A stretch of 30,492 nt of DNA from Pseudomonadota bacterium (lineage in GTDB: Bacteria; Pseudomonadota; Gammaproteobacteria; Burkholderiales; Burkholderiaceae_C). Location: assembly GCA_023422975.1 (NCBI GenBank), contig JAFAGF010000206.1, positions 1-30,492 on the forward strand, in the 5' to 3' direction. The translations under genes were made by a program, and so were the position numbers. Shown here piece after piece: positions 1,543-30,445 of this stretch. Position 1 is the stretch's first letter, and every line of letters begins with the position of its first letter. The notes under the pieces were generated by a model. That model was not told the origin of the DNA. It saw nothing but the letters and a program-made list of their open reading frames with translations, and made no database searches.

Positions 1543-2424
1543 TTACTTCAGCAGGCCAGCAGCCTTGGCGGCGTCTTCGATGCCTTGGTAGTTCTCAGGC
1601 TTGGATGCGATGAACTTGGAGGCACGCTGCAAATCCATGATGGCCTTGTGCTCGGGGTTGGCAGGGTCCAGCTTCAGGAAAGCATCGGTCAGCTTCTTGG
1701 TGAGCGCGGGGTCCAGGTCGCCACGCACCGTCCAGTTGTAGTCAAAGTATTCAGGGGTGGTGTAGAACACGCGCACCTTGGCGGGGTCTACCTTTTTGGT
1801 CTCTACCAGCTTGTCCCACACCGACGTGTTCAGCACACCGGCATCGGCCTTGCCTGCGGCCACAAAGGCCACGGTCGCATCGTGCGCCCCGGAGTACGCC
1901 ACGTTCTTGAAGTCTTTTTCAGGGTTGATGCCGGCCTTCTGGATGAAATAACGAGGCATCAACGAGCCCGAGGTGGACGAAGGTGCGCCAAAGGCGAACG
2001 TCTTGCCCTTCAGGTCTTCCAAGGTTTTGATGGCGGGATCGGCCGTGATGAAGCGCGAGGTGAACACCGCATCTTCTGCACGCTGCACGATGGGGTTGGC
2101 CGTGCCCTTGGTGCGGATCTTGGCCTGCACATAGGTAAAGCCACCCAGCCACGCCATGTCCAGCTTGCCCGTGGCCAGCGATTCCACCACGGCGGCGTAG
2201 TCGCTCACGGGGGTGAACACCACTTTCATGCCTGTTTCTTTGGACAGGTATTCGCCCAGGGGCTTGAATTTGCGTTGCAGCTCGGTGGGCGCTTCGTCAG
2301 GAATGGCCGAAACGCGCAGCACCTGCTCAGCAGCCGAAGCCGAGAAAGCAGTCAGGGTGGACGTTGCGGCAACAGCAAGCAGCGCCTGCTTGATCGCCAA
2401 GCGGCGGGCAAAAGATGTAGTCAT
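1543..2424 (-). CDS. phnD: Periplasmic substrate-binding protein of PhnD family (phosphonate/phosphite/selenate clade)
   Basis: This is the substrate-binding component of the importer. Residues 1-31 form a signal peptide with a basic start, a hydrophobic core and a cleavage-like end ASAAEQ. The mature protein has the PhnD-family order: [20 protein letters not shown] near the N-terminus, [12 protein letters not shown], the [10 protein letters not shown] strand, and the ligand-loop motif [15 protein letters not shown]. At 293 aa it is shorter than E. coli PhnD (338 aa). The [13 protein letters not shown] opening is, from memory, typical of a clade annotated as putative selenate-binding, so phosphonate specificity should not be assumed. 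It is the first gene of the minus-strand operon phnD-phnC-phnE. The start ATG has a weak GGAAA ribosome site. Confidence 0.85.
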
Positions 2425-3163: not shown

Positions 3164-4510
3164 ATGTCCACTGTTTTCAATTTCACCTTTGTTCCTTGGT
3201 TCCGGTCCGTGGCCCCTTATATCCACAAGTTCCGACACCAGACCTTTGTGGTGGGCATCACGGGTGAGGCCATTGCCGCAGGCAAGCTGCAAGGCATCGT
3301 GCAAGACTTGGCGCTGATTCAGGCCATGGGCGTCAAGATTGTGCTGGTGCATGGCTTTCGTCCGCAGGTCAACGAGCAGTTGCGCCTCAAAGGCCAGGAA
3401 CCCGCCTACTACAACGGGGTACGCATTACCGACAGCGTGGCCTTGGACTGTGCGCAAGAGGCCGCAGGCCAGCTGCGCTATGAAATTGAAGCGGCCTTCA
3501 GCCAAGGTCTGCCCAACACCCCCATGGCAGGTGCCCGCGTGCGCGTCATGTCAGGCAACTTTTTAACGGCACGCCCGGTGGGTATCGTCAACGGCGTGGA
3601 TTTCATGCACTCTGGCTTGGTGCGCAAAGTCGATGGCGAAGGCATTCAGCGCGCCCTCAATTCAGAAGCCATGGTGCTGCTCTCCCCCTTCGGCTTTTCA
3701 CCCACAGGCGAGGCCTTCAACCTGAGCATGGAAGAAGTCGCCACACGTGTGGCCAGCGAGCTCAAGGCCGACAAACTGCTCTTTTTGACCGAAGTGCCCG
3801 GCATACGCACCCGCCCCAAAGACCCAGAGGGCGAAGACAACCCGATTGACACCGAACTGCCGCTGGCACAAGCACGCAAGCTGCTGGCACAGCTGCCCCC
3901 ACCCCAAGTGCCGACCGACACTGGCTTTTACCTGCAGCACTGCGTGCGCGCCTGCGAGCATGGTGTGGAGCGCAGCCACATCCTGCCATTCTCGGTAGAT
4001 GGCGCTTTGCTGCTGGAAATTTATGTGCACGACGGCATTGGCACCATGGTGATCGATGAAAAGCTGGAAGAGCTGCGCGAAGCCACCATCGACGATGTGG
4101 GCGGCATCATCCAACTGATTGAGCCTTTTGAGAACGATGGCACCTTGGTCAAGCGTGACCGCACCGAAATTGAGCGTGACATTCACAGCTACACCGTGAT
4201 CGAGCACGACGGCGTGATTTTTGGCTGCGCCGCATTGCACCCCTACCCGGAAGCCAAGACGGGCGAGATGGCGGCCGTCACCGTCTCCCCCAAGGCCCAA
4301 GGCACGGGCGATGGTGAAAAACTCCTCAAGCGCATTGAGCAACGCGCCCGCGACCAAGGCCTGGATTCGCTGTTTGTACTGACCACCCGCACCATGCACT
4401 GGTTCATCAAACGCGGCTTTCAGCCCGTCAGCCCTGAGTGGCTGCCCGAAGCGCGCAAATCCAAATACAACTGGAGCCGCAAGAGTCAAGTGCTCGTCAA
4501 GCACCTGTAA
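3164..4510 (+). CDS. argA: N-acetylglutamate synthase (amino-acid N-acetyltransferase)
   Basis: ArgA transfers acetyl from acetyl-CoA to L-glutamate, the first step of arginine synthesis, in the cytoplasm. The 448-aa protein has the classic two-domain layout. An amino-acid-kinase-like domain (about 25-290) includes the GxxG-type stretch VVGITGEAI and VLVHGFRPQVNEQL. A GNAT acetyltransferase domain (about 300-448) has the acetyl-CoA loop region VSPKAQGTGDGEKLLKRIE and ends with the usual RKSKYNWSRKSQVLVK. Length fits the bacterial ArgA family (about 440-450 aa). The AAK domain is the usual site of arginine feedback. The ATG at 3164 lacks a clear Shine-Dalgarno but the N-terminus aligns with family members from memory. 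It is monocistronic; no terminator is obvious directly after it. Confidence 0.95.
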   Translation: MSTVFNFTFVPWFRSVAPYIHKFRHQTFVVGITGEAIAAGKLQGIVQDLALIQAMGVKIVLVHGFRPQVNEQLRLKGQEPAYYNGVRITDSVALDCAQEAAGQLRYEIEAAFSQGLPNTPMAGARVRVMSGNFLTARPVGIVNGVDFMHSGLVRKVDGEGIQRALNSEAMVLLSPFGFSPTGEAFNLSMEEVATRVASELKADKLLFLTEVPGIRTRPKDPEGEDNPIDTELPLAQARKLLAQLPPPQVPTDTGFYLQHCVRACEHGVERSHILPFSVDGALLLEIYVHDGIGTMVIDEKLEELREATIDDVGGIIQLIEPFENDGTLVKRDRTEIERDIHSYTVIEHDGVIFGCAALHPYPEAKTGEMAAVTVSPKAQGTGDGEKLLKRIEQRARDQGLDSLFVLTTRTMHWFIKRGFQPVSPEWLPEARKSKYNWSRKSQVLVKHL

Positions 4511-4635
4511 CACTTGCTTACCGACTGGCGGCAAAATTTATTTAAGCAGGAATTACCAACAAATAGCAGCAATCTGCAGATATGTCATAGCGTTTATGCT
4601 ATTTATTTGATAATTTCATTCTCACTAGAATAGGC

Positions 4636-4830
4636 TGCTGTACAGGGCATACGCGCTCCCAGCGATAGCCCTGACAAAGGGTGCTGCCAATGCAGCACTC
4701 ACAAGCTGGACACTCGGTTTTTAGGTTTAAATCACCTTTGTCGGATGTACTTCCGAGCAGATCCACAAGGTCTGAAACCGATCCCCTGGCCGAGCGTGCG
4801 GAGTACGCCCGGCCTCTTTTTTTTCGCGAC
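4636..4830 (+). promoter_or_regulatory. Structured 5' leader RNA of nrdJ (candidate riboswitch/attenuator)
   Basis: This region folds extensively on paper. Hairpin 1 pairs 4643-4648 (CAGGGC) with 4668-4673 (GCCCTG) and has an inner CGCT/AGCG stem. Hairpin 2 is GTGCTG 4681-4686 with CAGCAC 4693-4698. A 7-bp long-range stem, 4714-4720 (TCGGTTT) with 4775-4781 (AAACCGA), encloses three small hairpins: AGGT 4723/ACCT 4734; TCGGA 4741/TCCGA 4752; and CAGA-CC 4758/GGTCTG 4769 with an ACAA loop. Together they make a four-way junction. A strong intrinsic terminator follows at 4788-4824, still 80 nt before the nrdJ ATG, so transcription must read through it. It lacks the conserved B12-box of classical cobalamin riboswitches. 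I recall a published 'nrdJ' RNA motif upstream of class II reductases but cannot confirm a match. A TAGAAT at 4626-4631 could be a -10 box. Confidence 0.65.
4788..4824 (+). terminator. Intrinsic terminator inside the nrdJ leader
   Basis: Stem GGCCG (4788-4792) pairs with CGGCC (4810-4814). After a single A-C mismatch, GCGT (4794-4797) pairs with ACGC (4805-4808) around a 7-nt loop. The run of eight T at 4817-4824 follows. It sits upstream of the coding start rather than after argA, so it is best read as the off-switch of the leader. The 5' arm GAGCG (4792-4796) could alternatively pair with CGCTC in the loop side of hairpin 1 (4654-4658), an inferred and weak antitermination pairing. Confidence 0.75.
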
Positions 4831-4903
4831 TTGCGCACAACTCTTGCTTAGCAAGTGTCGGCACAAGAATGTCTAGATTTTTTTACTTCTTTACAAAGAC
4901 GCA

Positions 4904-7282
4904 ATGACTTCTTTGAACACGCAACCTATCAGCCAAGATGTCTTGGCCGAGAAATATCTGGCAGCTGGCGAACAAACCGCTGAAGATCTGTTCCGCCGCG
5001 TCTCCCAAGCTCTGGCCGATCAAGAAAAGCCAGAACTGCGCGCCCAGTGGGCAGAGAAGTTTTTCCAGAATATGCAAGCGGGCGCCATTGGCGCTGGCCG
5101 CATCATGGCCGCTGCCGGCTTGGACACCAAAGCCACGCTGATCAACTGTTTTGTACAGCCCGTGGCTGACGCCACCAACGGCTTTGATGAAAACGGCAAC
5201 CCCGGCATCTACACCGCACTGTCGCAAGCCGCTGAAACCATGCGCCGCGGCGGCGGTGTGGGCTACGACTTCTCCAACCTGCGCCCCAAAGGTGCCAAGG
5301 TCAAGGGCACCAACTCCTACGCTTCGGGGCCCTGCTCCTTCATCGATGTGTTTGACGCTTCGTGCACCACCGTGGAATCGGCCGGTGCACGCCGTGGCGC
5401 CCAAATGGGCGTCATGCGCATCGACCACCCCGATGTGCTGGACTTCATTACCGCCAAGCGCCAAAAAGGTCGCTGGAACAACTTCAACGTGTCGGTGGGC
5501 GTGACCAGCGATTTCATGCAAGCCGTGGAAAACGACAGCCAGTGGGAGCTGGTGCACGTTGCCACCCCATCGGATGTGCAGATCGAAGGCGGAGCCTACC
5601 AGCGCGCAGACGGCAAGTGGGTGTACCGCACCACCACAGCACGTGAGTTGTGGGACTCCATCATGAAGTCCGCCTACGACTTCGCAGAGCCCGGTATTTT
5701 GTTTATTGACAACATCAATACCGACAACAACCTGTACTACGCGGAAACCATTGCCGCTACCAACCCCTGCGGCGAGCAGCCCCTGCCTCCTTATGGCTGC
5801 TGCGACTTGGGCCCCATCATCCTGACCAAGTTCGTGCGCGATGCTTTCACTGCAGATGCACGCTTTGACTTTGAGAGCTTCCGCGCTGCCGTCTCCATCC
5901 AGGTGCGCATGCTGGACAACGTGCTGGACGCCACCGTCTGGCCCCTGCCCGAACAGCACAAGGAATCACAGCAAAAACGCCGCATTGGCGTAGGCTTTAC
6001 CGGCCTGGGCGACGCACTGATCATGCTGGGCCTGAAGTACAACAGCGACGAAGGCGTGGCTCAGGGCGAAGAAATTGCCCGCCAGATGCGCGATGCTGCG
6101 TACCTGGCCTCCGTAGAGCTGGCCAAGGAAAAAGGCGCTTTTCCGCTGTTTGATGCAGACAAATACCTCAAGAGCGGCTTTACCCAGCGTCTGCCCGAAG
6201 CCATTCGCGCAGAAATCAAAAAGCACGGCATCCGCAACAGCCACTTGCTGTCGATCGCGCCCACAGGCACTGTGTCGCTGGCATTTGCAGACAATGCCTC
6301 CAACGGGATCGAGCCACCTTTCTCGTGGACGTACAACCGCAAAAAGCGCACTGCCGATGGTGGCAACGCCTACTACACGGTGGAAGACCACGCCTACCGC
6401 GTCTACAAGTCCATGTTTGGCGAAGATGCTGCCCTGCCCGACTACTTTGTCAGCGCCTTGGAGATGACCGCTGCCGAGCACGTCGCGATGATGCGTGTCG
6501 TCCAGCCCTATATCGACACCGCCATCTCCAAGACCGTCAATATCCCTGCCGACTATCCCTTCGAGGACTTCAAGAGTCTCTACATGGAAAGCTGGAAGGC
6601 TGGTCTCAAGGGCTGTGCAACGTACCGCCCCAATGACACACTGGGCGCCGTGCTGTCGGTGGAAGCGCCAAAACCCGCTGATACACCCAAACCTGCAGCA
6701 GCCACCCAAAGCAGCAGCAATATTGCGGCTGTAGTGGAACGCCGCCCTGAAGGCCCACTGAACGCAGTGGTGGACAAGATTGAGTACTTCACCCATGACG
6801 GTGCACGCCGCCTGTATCTGGTGGTGAGCTTCATGCTGGTGGATGGCGTAGAGCGTCCGATCGAGTTCTTCATGCCCGTGGGCCAAACCGGCGAAAGCCA
6901 GCAATGGATCACTGCCACTATGCGCTCACTTTCGCTGGCAGCACGCGGTGGCTTCCTCGAAAAGGCATTGGAAGACCTGCGCAAAGTAGCCTGGGATCGC
7001 GGCCCTATTCGCTACGGCTGGATGGACAAGGCCGACGGAACCCGCATTCCCTTGTGGCACGACAGCGAAGTAGCACTGCTCGCCTACGCAGTTCAAGCCA
7101 TTATTGCCAATCGCGGTGAGGCACAACCTGTGCCCTCTACCTCGGCAGCCCCTGCACCCGCCCCCGAAATCAATCAAACCATGAGCGGCACCAAATGCCC
7201 AGATTGCGGTGCCCATGCCGTAATCAAGAAAGACGGCTGCTCTTTCTGCACCGCCTGCGGCTACATCGGCGCCTGTGGTTGA
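4904..7282 (+). CDS. nrdJ: Adenosylcobalamin-dependent (class II) ribonucleoside-diphosphate reductase
   Basis: NrdJ reduces ribonucleotides to deoxyribonucleotides for DNA synthesis, generating its thiyl radical from adenosylcobalamin, so it needs no oxygen and no small subunit. The 792-aa chain carries the radical-site motif NPCGEQPLPPYGCCDLG at 287-303 (Asn287, thiyl Cys289, Glu291). It also has the redox cysteine pair Cys82 and about Cys300, and the phosphate-loop-like SIAPTGTVSLAF. After a low-complexity Pro/Ala linker comes a TSCPD-type domain (about 640-720: IEFFMPVGQTGESQQW...), then a C-terminal Cys-rich zinc-ribbon tail (Cys765, 768, 779, 782, 785, 791) used to re-reduce the active site. 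The fused TSCPD domain corresponds to NrdJb in split versions. The ATG has no good ribosome site. Expression is probably gated by the leader RNA upstream. Confidence 0.95.
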   Translation: MTSLNTQPISQDVLAEKYLAAGEQTAEDLFRRVSQALADQEKPELRAQWAEKFFQNMQAGAIGAGRIMAAAGLDTKATLINCFVQPVADATNGFDENGNPGIYTALSQAAETMRRGGGVGYDFSNLRPKGAKVKGTNSYASGPCSFIDVFDASCTTVESAGARRGAQMGVMRIDHPDVLDFITAKRQKGRWNNFNVSVGVTSDFMQAVENDSQWELVHVATPSDVQIEGGAYQRADGKWVYRTTTARELWDSIMKSAYDFAEPGILFIDNINTDNNLYYAETIAATNPCGEQPLPPYGCCDLGPIILTKFVRDAFTADARFDFESFRAAVSIQVRMLDNVLDATVWPLPEQHKESQQKRRIGVGFTGLGDALIMLGLKYNSDEGVAQGEEIARQMRDAAYLASVELAKEKGAFPLFDADKYLKSGFTQRLPEAIRAEIKKHGIRNSHLLSIAPTGTVSLAFADNASNGIEPPFSWTYNRKKRTADGGNAYYTVEDHAYRVYKSMFGEDAALPDYFVSALEMTAAEHVAMMRVVQPYIDTAISKTVNIPADYPFEDFKSLYMESWKAGLKGCATYRPNDTLGAVLSVEAPKPADTPKPAAATQSSSNIAAVVERRPEGPLNAVVDKIEYFTHDGARRLYLVVSFMLVDGVERPIEFFMPVGQTGESQQWITATMRSLSLAARGGFLEKALEDLRKVAWDRGPIRYGWMDKADGTRIPLWHDSEVALLAYAVQAIIANRGEAQPVPSTSAAPAPAPEINQTMSGTKCPDCGAHAVIKKDGCSFCTACGYIGACG

Positions 7283-7443: not shown

Positions 7444-7520
7444 TGGTCGGAGCGGCGGGATTCGAACTCGCGACCCTCTGCTCCCAAAGCAGATGCGCTA
7501 CCAGGCTGCGCTACGCTCCG
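7444..7520 (-). tRNA. tRNA-Pro (anticodon UGG), copy 1
   Basis: The minus strand reads as a complete 77-nt cloverleaf with encoded CCA. The acceptor CGGAGCG pairs with CGCTCCG, the discriminator is A, and the T-loop is GTTCGAATC. The anticodon loop within CTGCTTTGGGAGCAG gives TGG, decoding CCA and other proline codons. A near-identical copy lies at 8438-8514. Confidence 0.95.
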
Positions 7521-7602
7521 AACAGGACGTAGTATAACTGATTTTTGCTATCAAAAATTCTACCGAGGTGCTTGTTCGCACCAATCGGCGGCTGTACATC
7601 AC

Positions 7603-7683
7603 TCAATACAAGCCGTATCGATTCAAAAAATAAAGCGCGGCCAAAATGCCCACAATTGCCAAGATGGTCATGGTTCGAGTCAT
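7603..7683 (-). CDS. Unrecognised 26-aa hydrophobic peptide
   Basis: The minus-strand ATG at 7683 is preceded by a strong ribosome site (GAAGGAGG, about 7 nt from ATG) and runs 26 codons to TGA at 7603. The peptide begins MTRTM, has a hydrophobic helix (TILAIVGILAALYFL, residues 6-20) and ends NRYGLY, so it is predicted to be a single-span inner-membrane mini-protein. The ribosome site sits inside the perfect palindrome CTCCTTCGAAGGAG (7691-7704), so the mRNA could hide it in a hairpin. It lies between the lipoprotein gene (opposite strand) and tRNA-Pro copy 1, 82 bp upstream of the latter on the same strand. I do not recognise the family. It may be a genuine tiny ORF or a chance one. Confidence 0.45.
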   Translation of the reverse strand: MTRTMTILAIVGILAALYFLNRYGLY

Positions 7684-7690
7684 ATGAACA

Positions 7691-7704
7691 CCTCCTTCGA
7701 AGGA
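7691..7704. promoter_or_regulatory. Palindrome containing the ribosome site of the 26-aa ORF
   Basis: CTCCTTCGAAGGAG is self-complementary. In the minus-strand transcript it would pair the GGAG of the ribosome site with CTCC upstream, a simple occlusion hairpin. The RNA stem is at most about 5-6 bp with a tight loop, so the effect may be mild. Confidence 0.35.
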
Positions 7705-7883
7705 GTTTCATCGTAGCGCTGAAGGGCTTCCCGAAAAAGCCCTTCAAAAAAGCTGCCACCACCAAGCAGCCACACGTACTCAAAGCGAAAACACCTTACG
7801 TGCTGGCCACTACAGAACTCTCACAATGCAGTAACACACCCCATGTGATGCGCATCCTGAAAGACGCAAAAAAGGAGTTCTCC

Positions 7884-8276
7884 ATGAGATATTTTCTCCC
7901 TGTCGCATTGGCTACCACGGTGATTGGGCTGTCCGCCTGTAGCAGCACTACACACCACACCGACACCCGCAGCCCCGGCACAGTCTTACAAGGCCGACTG
8001 GTTGGGCCACAGCAAATGACGCTGTACGTTTTTGACCACGACATCAGCGGCAGCGGTAAAAGCATGTGCAACGGCAATTGCGCCAGTAACTGGCCTCCAC
8101 TGCAAGCCCCCAGCACGGCCCAGTCCATCGGAGCATGGCACACGATCACGCGCGATGATGGCAGCAAGCAATGGTCCTACAAGGGCAAACCTCTGTACTA
8201 CTGGGCCAAAGACAGCAAACCTGGCGACACCACGGGCGATGGCGTTGGCAATGCCTGGCACGTTGCCAAACCTTAA
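7884..8276 (+). CDS. Small lipoprotein with secreted-repeat (Lipoprotein_15) domain
   Basis: A 130-aa exported lipoprotein. The N-terminus MRYFLPVALATTVIGLSAC is a type II signal peptide with lipobox LSAC and lipidated Cys19. The rest matches the secreted-repeat family (PF03640): LYVFDHDISGSGKSMCNGNCASNWPPL (about 51-77, with the typical Cys pair), then a second half WSYKGKPLYYWAKDSKPGDTTGDGVGNAWHV. Proteins of this family sit in the cell envelope and their function is not established. I start at ATG 7884 because AAAGGAG lies 6 nt upstream and gives a full signal peptide; the frame is open further upstream to 7545 but without signal or ribosome site. It is monocistronic and flanked by the duplicated tRNA-Pro blocks. 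Confidence 0.85.
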   Translation: MRYFLPVALATTVIGLSACSSTTHHTDTRSPGTVLQGRLVGPQQMTLYVFDHDISGSGKSMCNGNCASNWPPLQAPSTAQSIGAWHTITRDDGSKQWSYKGKPLYYWAKDSKPGDTTGDGVGNAWHVAKP

Positions 8277-8293
8277 ATGAAAATTTATTTTGA

Positions 8294-8310
8294 TAGCTAT
8301 CAGCGCTTAC
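8294..8310 (+). repeat. Short intergenic repeat arm, downstream of lipoprotein gene
   Basis: ATAGCTATCAGCGCTTA matches the element at 1410-1425 in 15 of the first 16 positions. It lies 18 bp past the lipoprotein stop, in an otherwise featureless AT-rich spacer (8277-8399). Confidence 0.5.
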
Positions 8311-8399
8311 TAGAACTGCGAAAAGCTGTCTTTGTATAAAGAATAATAAAGATATCTACATCAATGTGTGTAGCGTCAAAAACCAAAAGCACCAATGAC

Positions 8400-8429
8400 A
8401 AAAGGGCTAGATCTTTCGATCTAGCCCTT
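8400..8429 (-). terminator. Terminator of tRNA-Pro copy 2 (minus strand)
   Basis: The same 12-bp stem and GAAA loop as at 7409-7436 (arms 8402-8413 and 8418-8429), ending in TTTT on the minus strand. It terminates the infA/tRNA-Pro transcription unit. Confidence 0.8.
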
Positions 8430-8437
8430 CAATCTTT

Positions 8438-8514
8438 TGGTCGGAGCGGCGGGATTCGAACTCGCGACCCTCTGCTCCCAAAGCAGATGCGCTACCAGAC
8501 TGCGCTACGCTCCG
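8438..8514 (-). tRNA. tRNA-Pro (anticodon UGG), copy 2
   Basis: A 77-nt cloverleaf with encoded CCA. It differs from copy 1 by a single base in the D-arm region (CCAGACTGCG versus CCAGGCTGCG on the plus strand). It is 70 bp downstream of infA on the same strand and may be co-transcribed with it. Confidence 0.95.
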
Positions 8515-29922: not shown

Positions 29923-29999
29923 TGGCGGAGTGGACGGGACTCGAACCCGCGACCCCCGGCGTGACAGGCCGGTATTCTAACCAACTGAACTACCACTCC
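29923..29999 (-). tRNA. tRNA-Asp (anticodon GUC), copy 1
   Basis: A 77-nt cloverleaf with encoded CCA. The acceptor GGAGTGG pairs with CCACTCC, with discriminator G and anticodon loop CTGTCAC giving GTC. It is the last gene of the array in transcription order and identical to copy 2. Confidence 0.95.
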
Positions 30000-30047
30000 T
30001 GGCAGAAAGCTTTGCTAGCTTTTTCAAAGCATCAAGCGCCTCAAACT

Positions 30048-30123
30048 TGGCGACCCTACGGGGATTCGAACCCCGGTACCCACCGTGAAAGGGTGGTGTC
30101 CTAGGCCTCTAGACGATAGGGTC
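30048..30123 (-). tRNA. tRNA-Glu (anticodon UUC), copy 1
   Basis: A 76-nt cloverleaf with CCA; acceptor GACCCTA/TAGGGTC, anticodon loop CTTTCAC giving TTC. The 48-bp spacer to tRNA-Asp contains a small AAAGCT/AGCTTT hairpin that may guide processing. Confidence 0.95.
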
Positions 30124-30160
30124 AAAACCTAAGAACCGATTTCTCGCTTCCGAAAATCTT

Positions 30161-30236
<76 letters not shown>

Positions 30237-30244
30237 AAAGGAAC

Positions 30245-30321
30245 TGGCGGAGTGGACGGGACTCGAACCCGCGACCCCCGGCGTGACAGGCCGGTATTCT
30301 AACCAACTGAACTACCACTCC
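30245..30321 (-). tRNA. tRNA-Asp (anticodon GUC), copy 2
   Basis: Identical in sequence to the copy at 29923-29999, offset by 322 bp, with encoded CCA. Confidence 0.95.
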
Positions 30322-30369
30322 TGGCAGGAAGCTTTGCTAGCTTTTAACAAGCATCAAGCGCTTCAAACT

Positions 30370-30445
30370 TGGCGACCCTACGGGGATTCGAACCCCGGTA
30401 CCCACCGTGAAAGGGTGGTGTCCTAGGCCTCTAGACGATAGGGTC
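30370..30445 (-). tRNA. tRNA-Glu (anticodon UUC), copy 2
   Basis: Identical to the copy at 30048-30123. It is the first tRNA of the visible array; its promoter would lie in or beyond 30446-30492. Confidence 0.95.

Follow-up and report, generated by a model that had tools for sequence, protein, structure and literature searches.

A candidate attenuating leader RNA upstream of the class II ribonucleotide reductase gene nrdJ in a small group of Comamonas

Introduction

What is an intrinsic terminator doing between a promoter-like stretch and the start codon of a ribonucleotide reductase gene? The question arises in a stretch of 30,492 nucleotides from a Pseudomonadota bacterium (hereafter, the window), in which nrdJ, the gene for an adenosylcobalamin-dependent class II ribonucleotide reductase (4904..7282; TIGR02504, 606 bits against a cut-off of 400), is preceded by argA, encoding an amino-acid N-acetyltransferase (3164..4510; NCBIfam NF003641 and TIGR01890, both above cut-off). 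A first-pass annotation, made from the sequence alone, described the intervening segment as a highly structured nrdJ leader, possibly a riboswitch or an attenuator, and held that a terminator in such a place only makes sense if read-through is controlled. We found no paper on a Comamonas nrdJ leader in the open-licence literature. Here, we compare the locus with its relatives and ask whether a shared RNA precedes nrdJ, whether it could act as a switch, and which of the known systems it resembles. All features are on the plus strand unless noted otherwise.

Results

Relatives were collected by their NrdJ proteins. Seven loci combine an NrdJ at least 89% identical with an argA gene upstream, namely, the window, Comamonas jiangduensis (L030), C. 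aquatica (L023), C. avium (L002), Comamonas sp. NoAH 17 (L001), C. kerstersii (L003) and the metagenome-assembled genome NTP6 (L004). Among the compared loci, C. jiangduensis is the nearest relative of the window, with 92% identity over 4590-4910, and the distance from the end of argA to nrdJ is about 370 to 525 nt in all seven. The next relative (L005, NrdJ 86% identical) has no argA in the locus and no match to the leader model. In the C. jiangduensis record, nrdJ matches in pieces and in two frames, with residues 1-36 and 34-450 apart, and the argA match is split in three; these genes, or the assembly, may be broken. Elsewhere, the window encodes a putative selenate ABC transporter substrate-binding protein (1543-2424, minus strand; TIGR04553, 386.8 bits, cut-off 250), an open frame between two tRNA-Pro(tgg) genes (7444-8514) that weakly resembles SCO0930-family lipoproteins (82.7 bits against a cut-off of 275) and, at 29923-30445 on the minus strand, a cluster of tRNA genes with two copies each of Asp(gtc) and Glu(ttc) surrounding one Ala(ggc) gene.

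The terminator is the firmest element of the locus. Its stem (4788-4814) contains one A-C mismatch and is followed by TC and a run of eight T (4817-4824), so that the near-perfect terminator placed by the first-pass annotation about 80 nt before the start codon was indeed found, 79 nt before nrdJ. A simple terminator scanner called nothing at 4788-4824, presumably because of the mismatch, and a mismatch-tolerant scan recovered the hairpin and T-run. The same arrangement precedes nrdJ in 6 of the 7 loci, C. avium being the one that lacks it, at about 64-78 nt from the gene. The terminator is also the best-kept part of the segment, with an identity of 0.92 between the window and C. aquatica. Its conservation is solid, and a conserved intrinsic terminator thus lies between the putative promoter and the start codon, the layout of an attenuator, in 6 of the 7 loci. 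The statement that this arrangement only makes sense with controlled read-through nevertheless goes too far: a terminator would also be expected at the end of a stand-alone small RNA or as an insulator.

The RNA that would end here is about 187 nt long (4638..4824, with a putative 5′ end) and, in the window, folds strongly, with a z of about -4.5 to -5. For 4636-4830, the minimum free energy (MFE) is -77.7, whereas shuffled sequences average -58.3 (sd 4.3; z -4.5) and none of 200 folds as low; this bears out the description of the segment as highly structured. Without the terminator, the z is -4.9 and none of 100 shuffles folds as well. Folding is less marked in the relatives (z -1.9 in C. jiangduensis, -4.6 in C. 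aquatica, -1.5 in strain NoAH 17, -2.2 in C. kerstersii, -3.2 in NTP6 and -0.7 in C. avium).

The two 5′ hairpins, the 7-bp long-range stem (4714-4720/4775-4781) and the terminator reported earlier all reappeared in our folding at the same coordinates. From the 5′ side, the parts are a hairpin closed by CAGGGC/GCCCTG in the MFE fold (4643..4673), absent from the matching alignment columns in C. aquatica; motif I, GCGATAGCCCTG, a run of conserved columns (4662..4673); hairpin P2 (4679..4700); a three-hairpin junction closed by the 7-bp stem (4714..4781); motif II, likewise conserved, with the short hairpin P3 (4719..4738); and hairpin P4 (4741..4756). The expectation that the structure would recur in relatives with compensatory changes holds for P2, in which 5 of 6 counted pairs changed on both sides in some species, and for P4 (5 of 5). 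The junction has support only among the window, C. jiangduensis and C. aquatica; in these three, 6 of the 44 pairs of the whole counted structure changed on both sides, a number reached by 3 of 500 shuffles. In the six-sequence alignment, none of the P3 pairs changed on both sides, and the pair probability of this hairpin is low. P2 is also the top helix in an unguided scan of column pairs, in which third place goes to a long-range helix between motif I and the sequence following motif II. Single-sequence ensembles often favour alternative pairings over P2, P3 and P4, whose pair probabilities range, by species, from 0.00 to 0.94 (0.00 in C. aquatica and 0.10 in strain NoAH 17), from 0.00 to 0.16 and from 0.00 to 0.98, respectively.

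Across a plain sequence alignment of the six loci other than C. avium, 90.6% of the cells of P2, P3, P4 and the terminator are paired (none of 500 shuffles as high; slid controls 29-48%) and 11 of 24 pairs changed on both sides (again, none of 500), and the number of further pair types was reached by 24 of 500 shuffles; these counts lean towards structure because the structure was chosen on that same alignment. The RNA bodies are closely similar within subgroups (z 11.5 for the window and C. aquatica; 16.6 for strain NoAH 17 and C. kerstersii), and those of the window and strain NoAH 17 align at chance by sequence (z 0.0). A model of the window, C. jiangduensis and C. aquatica finds the held-out C. 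kerstersii RNA at the aligned place and full length (15.0 bits; E 6e-4 in 542 nt) and neither strain NoAH 17 nor NTP6. The NTP6 locus is recovered at its aligned place by a model built without it, with 12.3 bits (E 0.0019 in 418-421 nt), although in 33 kb this match has an E of 0.15 and ranks behind a chance match of 13.9 bits in L049. The C. avium locus reaches only 2.1 to 4.3 bits with three models. One fold shared by the six loci is thus plausible, with modest support from covariation and modelling.

How far does this RNA extend? The six-sequence model gave five strong matches in 53 genomes of the genus (E 1.2e-15 or better; 69 candidates scored per genome), all of them training loci, with nothing beyond these better than E 0.0115. 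In 399 genomes of the family (9 candidates scored per genome), the only strong match is the training locus of C. aquatica, and 11 others fall between E 9e-4 and 0.05; three weak matches (L172, L173 and L179) overlap long open frames. Absence elsewhere does not follow from these searches, since held-out true relatives score 12-15 bits, below the 17-30 bits of chance-level matches. The association with nrdJ is that of one inherited locus and not of several independent ones.

Upstream of the RNA, conservation points to a putative promoter (4607..4631) that ends in a -10-like TAGAAT (4626-4631). The hexamer is present in 6 of the 7 loci, with TAAGAT in C. avium, and the 34 nt before it are alike in the window, C. 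jiangduensis, C. aquatica, C. avium and C. kerstersii, more weakly so in strain NoAH 17 and not in NTP6. In a sigma-70 scan, the site in the TAGAAT region did not by itself rise above shuffles, and the -35 before the RNA is weak, none being convincing. Promoter-like scores were not consistently above shuffles either before the RNA (6 to 100 of 200 shuffles as high, depending on the species) or after the terminator (4 to 158 of 200), where no consistent -10 recurs across species; in C. kerstersii, the post-terminator stretch does contain a sigma-70-like site whose score exceeds that of shuffles (reached by 4 of 200). The silence of the scan proves little, because it also misses a kept box of sister species. 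This box, TTGCGYTGYRTCAC, lies 71-97 nt before the nrdJ match in 16 of 17 further Comamonas loci (L126-L142) and, with one base different, in the seventeenth; it is absent near nrdJ in all seven loci compared here, and is possibly a regulator site. Downstream of the terminator, comparison of the C. avium segment with its relatives delineates a further conserved segment (4831..4849), with z of 3.9 to 8.4 against the window, C. jiangduensis, C. aquatica, strain NoAH 17 and C. kerstersii, and 2.3 against NTP6. This segment could be a promoter of nrdJ's own.

The C. avium locus provides a natural comparison, with both flanks kept around no such RNA. Measured against C. aquatica, its promoter side, hexamer excluded, has a z of 7.3 (window, 3.8) and its downstream flank 8.4 (window, 4.8), whereas its body has 2.1 (window, 11.5). 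There is no hairpin followed by a T-run in C. avium, and the sequence folds like a shuffled one. Dissimilarity of the body would not by itself prove loss of the RNA, given that the window and strain NoAH 17 bodies, too, align at no better than chance. A promoter that served a small RNA alone should have decayed in C. avium; its retention, judged from sequence comparison, suggests that the promoter-like stretch serves nrdJ. The survival of both flanks without the RNA thus favours one transcript that carries the RNA as a leader ahead of nrdJ.

We then asked how such a leader could be switched. The proposed antiterminator pairing of CGCTC (4654-4658) with GAGCG (4792-4796) can form in the window; as a conserved antiterminator it fails, since the pair is present only in the window and C. 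jiangduensis, being the favoured partner in the latter, and its sequence is absent in C. aquatica. In the window, 4713-4724 outcompetes CGCTC as the partner of the terminator arm in the folding model. The 5′ arm of the terminator can pair upstream in each of the six species, with partners that differ, and in 5 of the 6 this pairing is not above that with shuffled upstream sequence (as high in 33 of 100 shuffles for the window, 21 for C. jiangduensis, 87 for C. aquatica, 63 for strain NoAH 17 and 73 for NTP6), the exception being C. kerstersii (3 of 100). A test for a shared antiterminator column gave p 0.85, so a classical conserved antiterminator is not supported. A kept leader peptide was rejected as well: the frame from ATG 4690, followed by eye, shifts in C. 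jiangduensis, which has one C fewer in a CCCC run. Pairing of the leader with the starts of nrdJ (6 loci) or of nrdH-like genes (4 loci) never fell below 5 of 30 shuffles. Because no conserved antiterminator strand was found, read-through would have to involve pairing that differs between species, or a protein.

Known RNA families do not account for the segment. An Rfam search of 4400-5000 returned two chance-level matches (E 3; 16.7 and 15.7 bits against gathering cut-offs of 38 and 100). The classical B12 box was said not to be visible, and this is confirmed by the lack of a match to the cobalamin riboswitch RF00174 before nrdJ in the window or its six relatives, while the same model exceeds its cut-off elsewhere in 7 of 7 genomes tested. 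The nrdJ RNA motif named in the first-pass annotation does exist, as RF03034, and the check proposed there against the cobalamin and nrdJ models came out negative for both. No Comamonas genome of seven had an RF03034 match over the cut-off, and neither had the control genomes, so this search has no positive control; sub-threshold matches fall on contigs other than that of nrdJ. Likewise, 6S RNA (RF00013) has no match at the locus, and full-length sub-threshold matches occur elsewhere in 5 of 8 genomes.

In four related Comamonas genomes, G003-G006, a cobalamin riboswitch (L211:446-681, L212:3897-4130, L213:3437-3666 and L214:469-693) does lie about 700-835 nt upstream of a confirmed class Ib NrdE, suggesting that B12 sensing is already done elsewhere. 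The genomes with this arrangement also carry an nrdJ whose leader has no RF00174 match. In C. jiangduensis, the same order of riboswitch and protein is found with a putative NrdE, and C. aquatica gave no match of this kind.

Discussion

Our tentative reading is that, in these few Comamonas, the segment is the leader of the nrdJ mRNA, that this leader is specific to the lineage and previously undescribed, and that it probably acts by attenuation. Our confidence in this reading, which had stood at an even chance, has slipped slightly below it after the hold-out and ensemble tests, and two rivals, a small RNA and a plain terminator, have risen accordingly. If the reading is correct, transcription would start just after TAGAAT, near 4638, and the nascent RNA would fold into the lineage-specific structure suggested by folding and the modest covariation. 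Polymerase would then stop at 4824 unless something lets it through, and the level of nrdJ would be set by premature termination, with read-through brought about by species-specific pairing or by a protein that recognizes the kept motifs I and II and P2.

The main rival, which we regard as unlikely although worth serious attention, is that the roughly 187 nt form a small RNA gene in its own right, bounded by the TAGAAT promoter and its own terminator at 4824, with the promoter of nrdJ located in 4825-4890. In six species, a promoter-like start and a terminator do enclose a unit of similar length, no conserved antiterminator was found, conservation of the segment downstream of the terminator extends to C. 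avium, and the sigma-70-like site of C. kerstersii falls in the right place. However, the promoter-like stretch survives in C. avium without the RNA, no consistent -10 follows the terminator, although the scan also misses the kept box of the sister species, and no pairing with nrdJ or nrdH-like starts exceeds that of shuffles. A still less probable alternative dispenses with a functional RNA altogether: the terminator would merely shield nrdJ from transcription of argA or from further upstream, and the sequence before it would be a fast-evolving spacer with no specific role. That the terminator is the best-kept part, that the window and strain NoAH 17 bodies cannot be aligned by sequence and that hold-out scores are low is all as this explanation predicts; the similarity of bodies within subgroups, the compensatory changes in P2 and P4 and the strong folding of the window body are not.

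Least favoured is a riboswitch of diverged sequence with adenosylcobalamin or a nucleotide as its ligand. The position before a B12-dependent enzyme and the two kept motifs would suit it, but we consider it improbable, given that the leader has no RF00174 match in genomes that do carry ordinary cobalamin riboswitches. Equally doubtful, in our estimate, and slightly more so after the hold-out and ensemble tests, is a new lineage-specific RNA sensor that switches nrdJ as a complement to the cobalamin riboswitch with which the same cells would control their B12-independent class Ib reductase. Were such a sensor real, two different RNAs would decide which reductase makes DNA precursors.

Should the preferred leader reading hold, a genus that can be cultured would offer an RNA element that controls an essential enzyme and is missing from Rfam release 15. 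Alongside the cobalamin riboswitch that precedes nrdE in related genomes, it would open the choice between reductase classes at the RNA level to direct testing.

How does the Comamonas leader compare with known systems? The nrdJ RNA (RF03034) is listed, in a passage of PMC8079986, upstream of nrdJ in Streptomyces lividans, and the Comamonas leader occupies the same position; by contrast, the actinobacterial family is an 80-position model that does not match the window. With the cobalamin riboswitches of reductase operons, of which Streptomyces nrdABS is cited as an example in PMC5962746, it shares the placement of an RNA leader before a reductase, but an aptamer match is absent before nrdJ. 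In Pseudomonas aeruginosa, according to the same source, B12 influences the nrd genes independently of a B12 riboswitch, and P. aeruginosa nrdJ is placed under NrdR control in a passage of PMC4409342. Scored against an NrdR-box consensus, box-like sites lie inside P2, about 206-209 nt before nrdJ, in strain NoAH 17 (15 of 16 positions; none of 300 shuffles as high) and C. kerstersii (13 of 16; 2 of 300), and no site rises above shuffles in the other five loci. In three further loci from Malikia and a relative (L017, L029 and L039), paired NrdR-box-like palindromes ending in TAGTG can be seen by eye before nrdJ. From terminator-type attenuators the Comamonas leader differs in having neither a conserved antiterminator nor a kept leader peptide, whereas it shares with them the layout of a folded leader with an intrinsic terminator at its end, upstream of the start codon.
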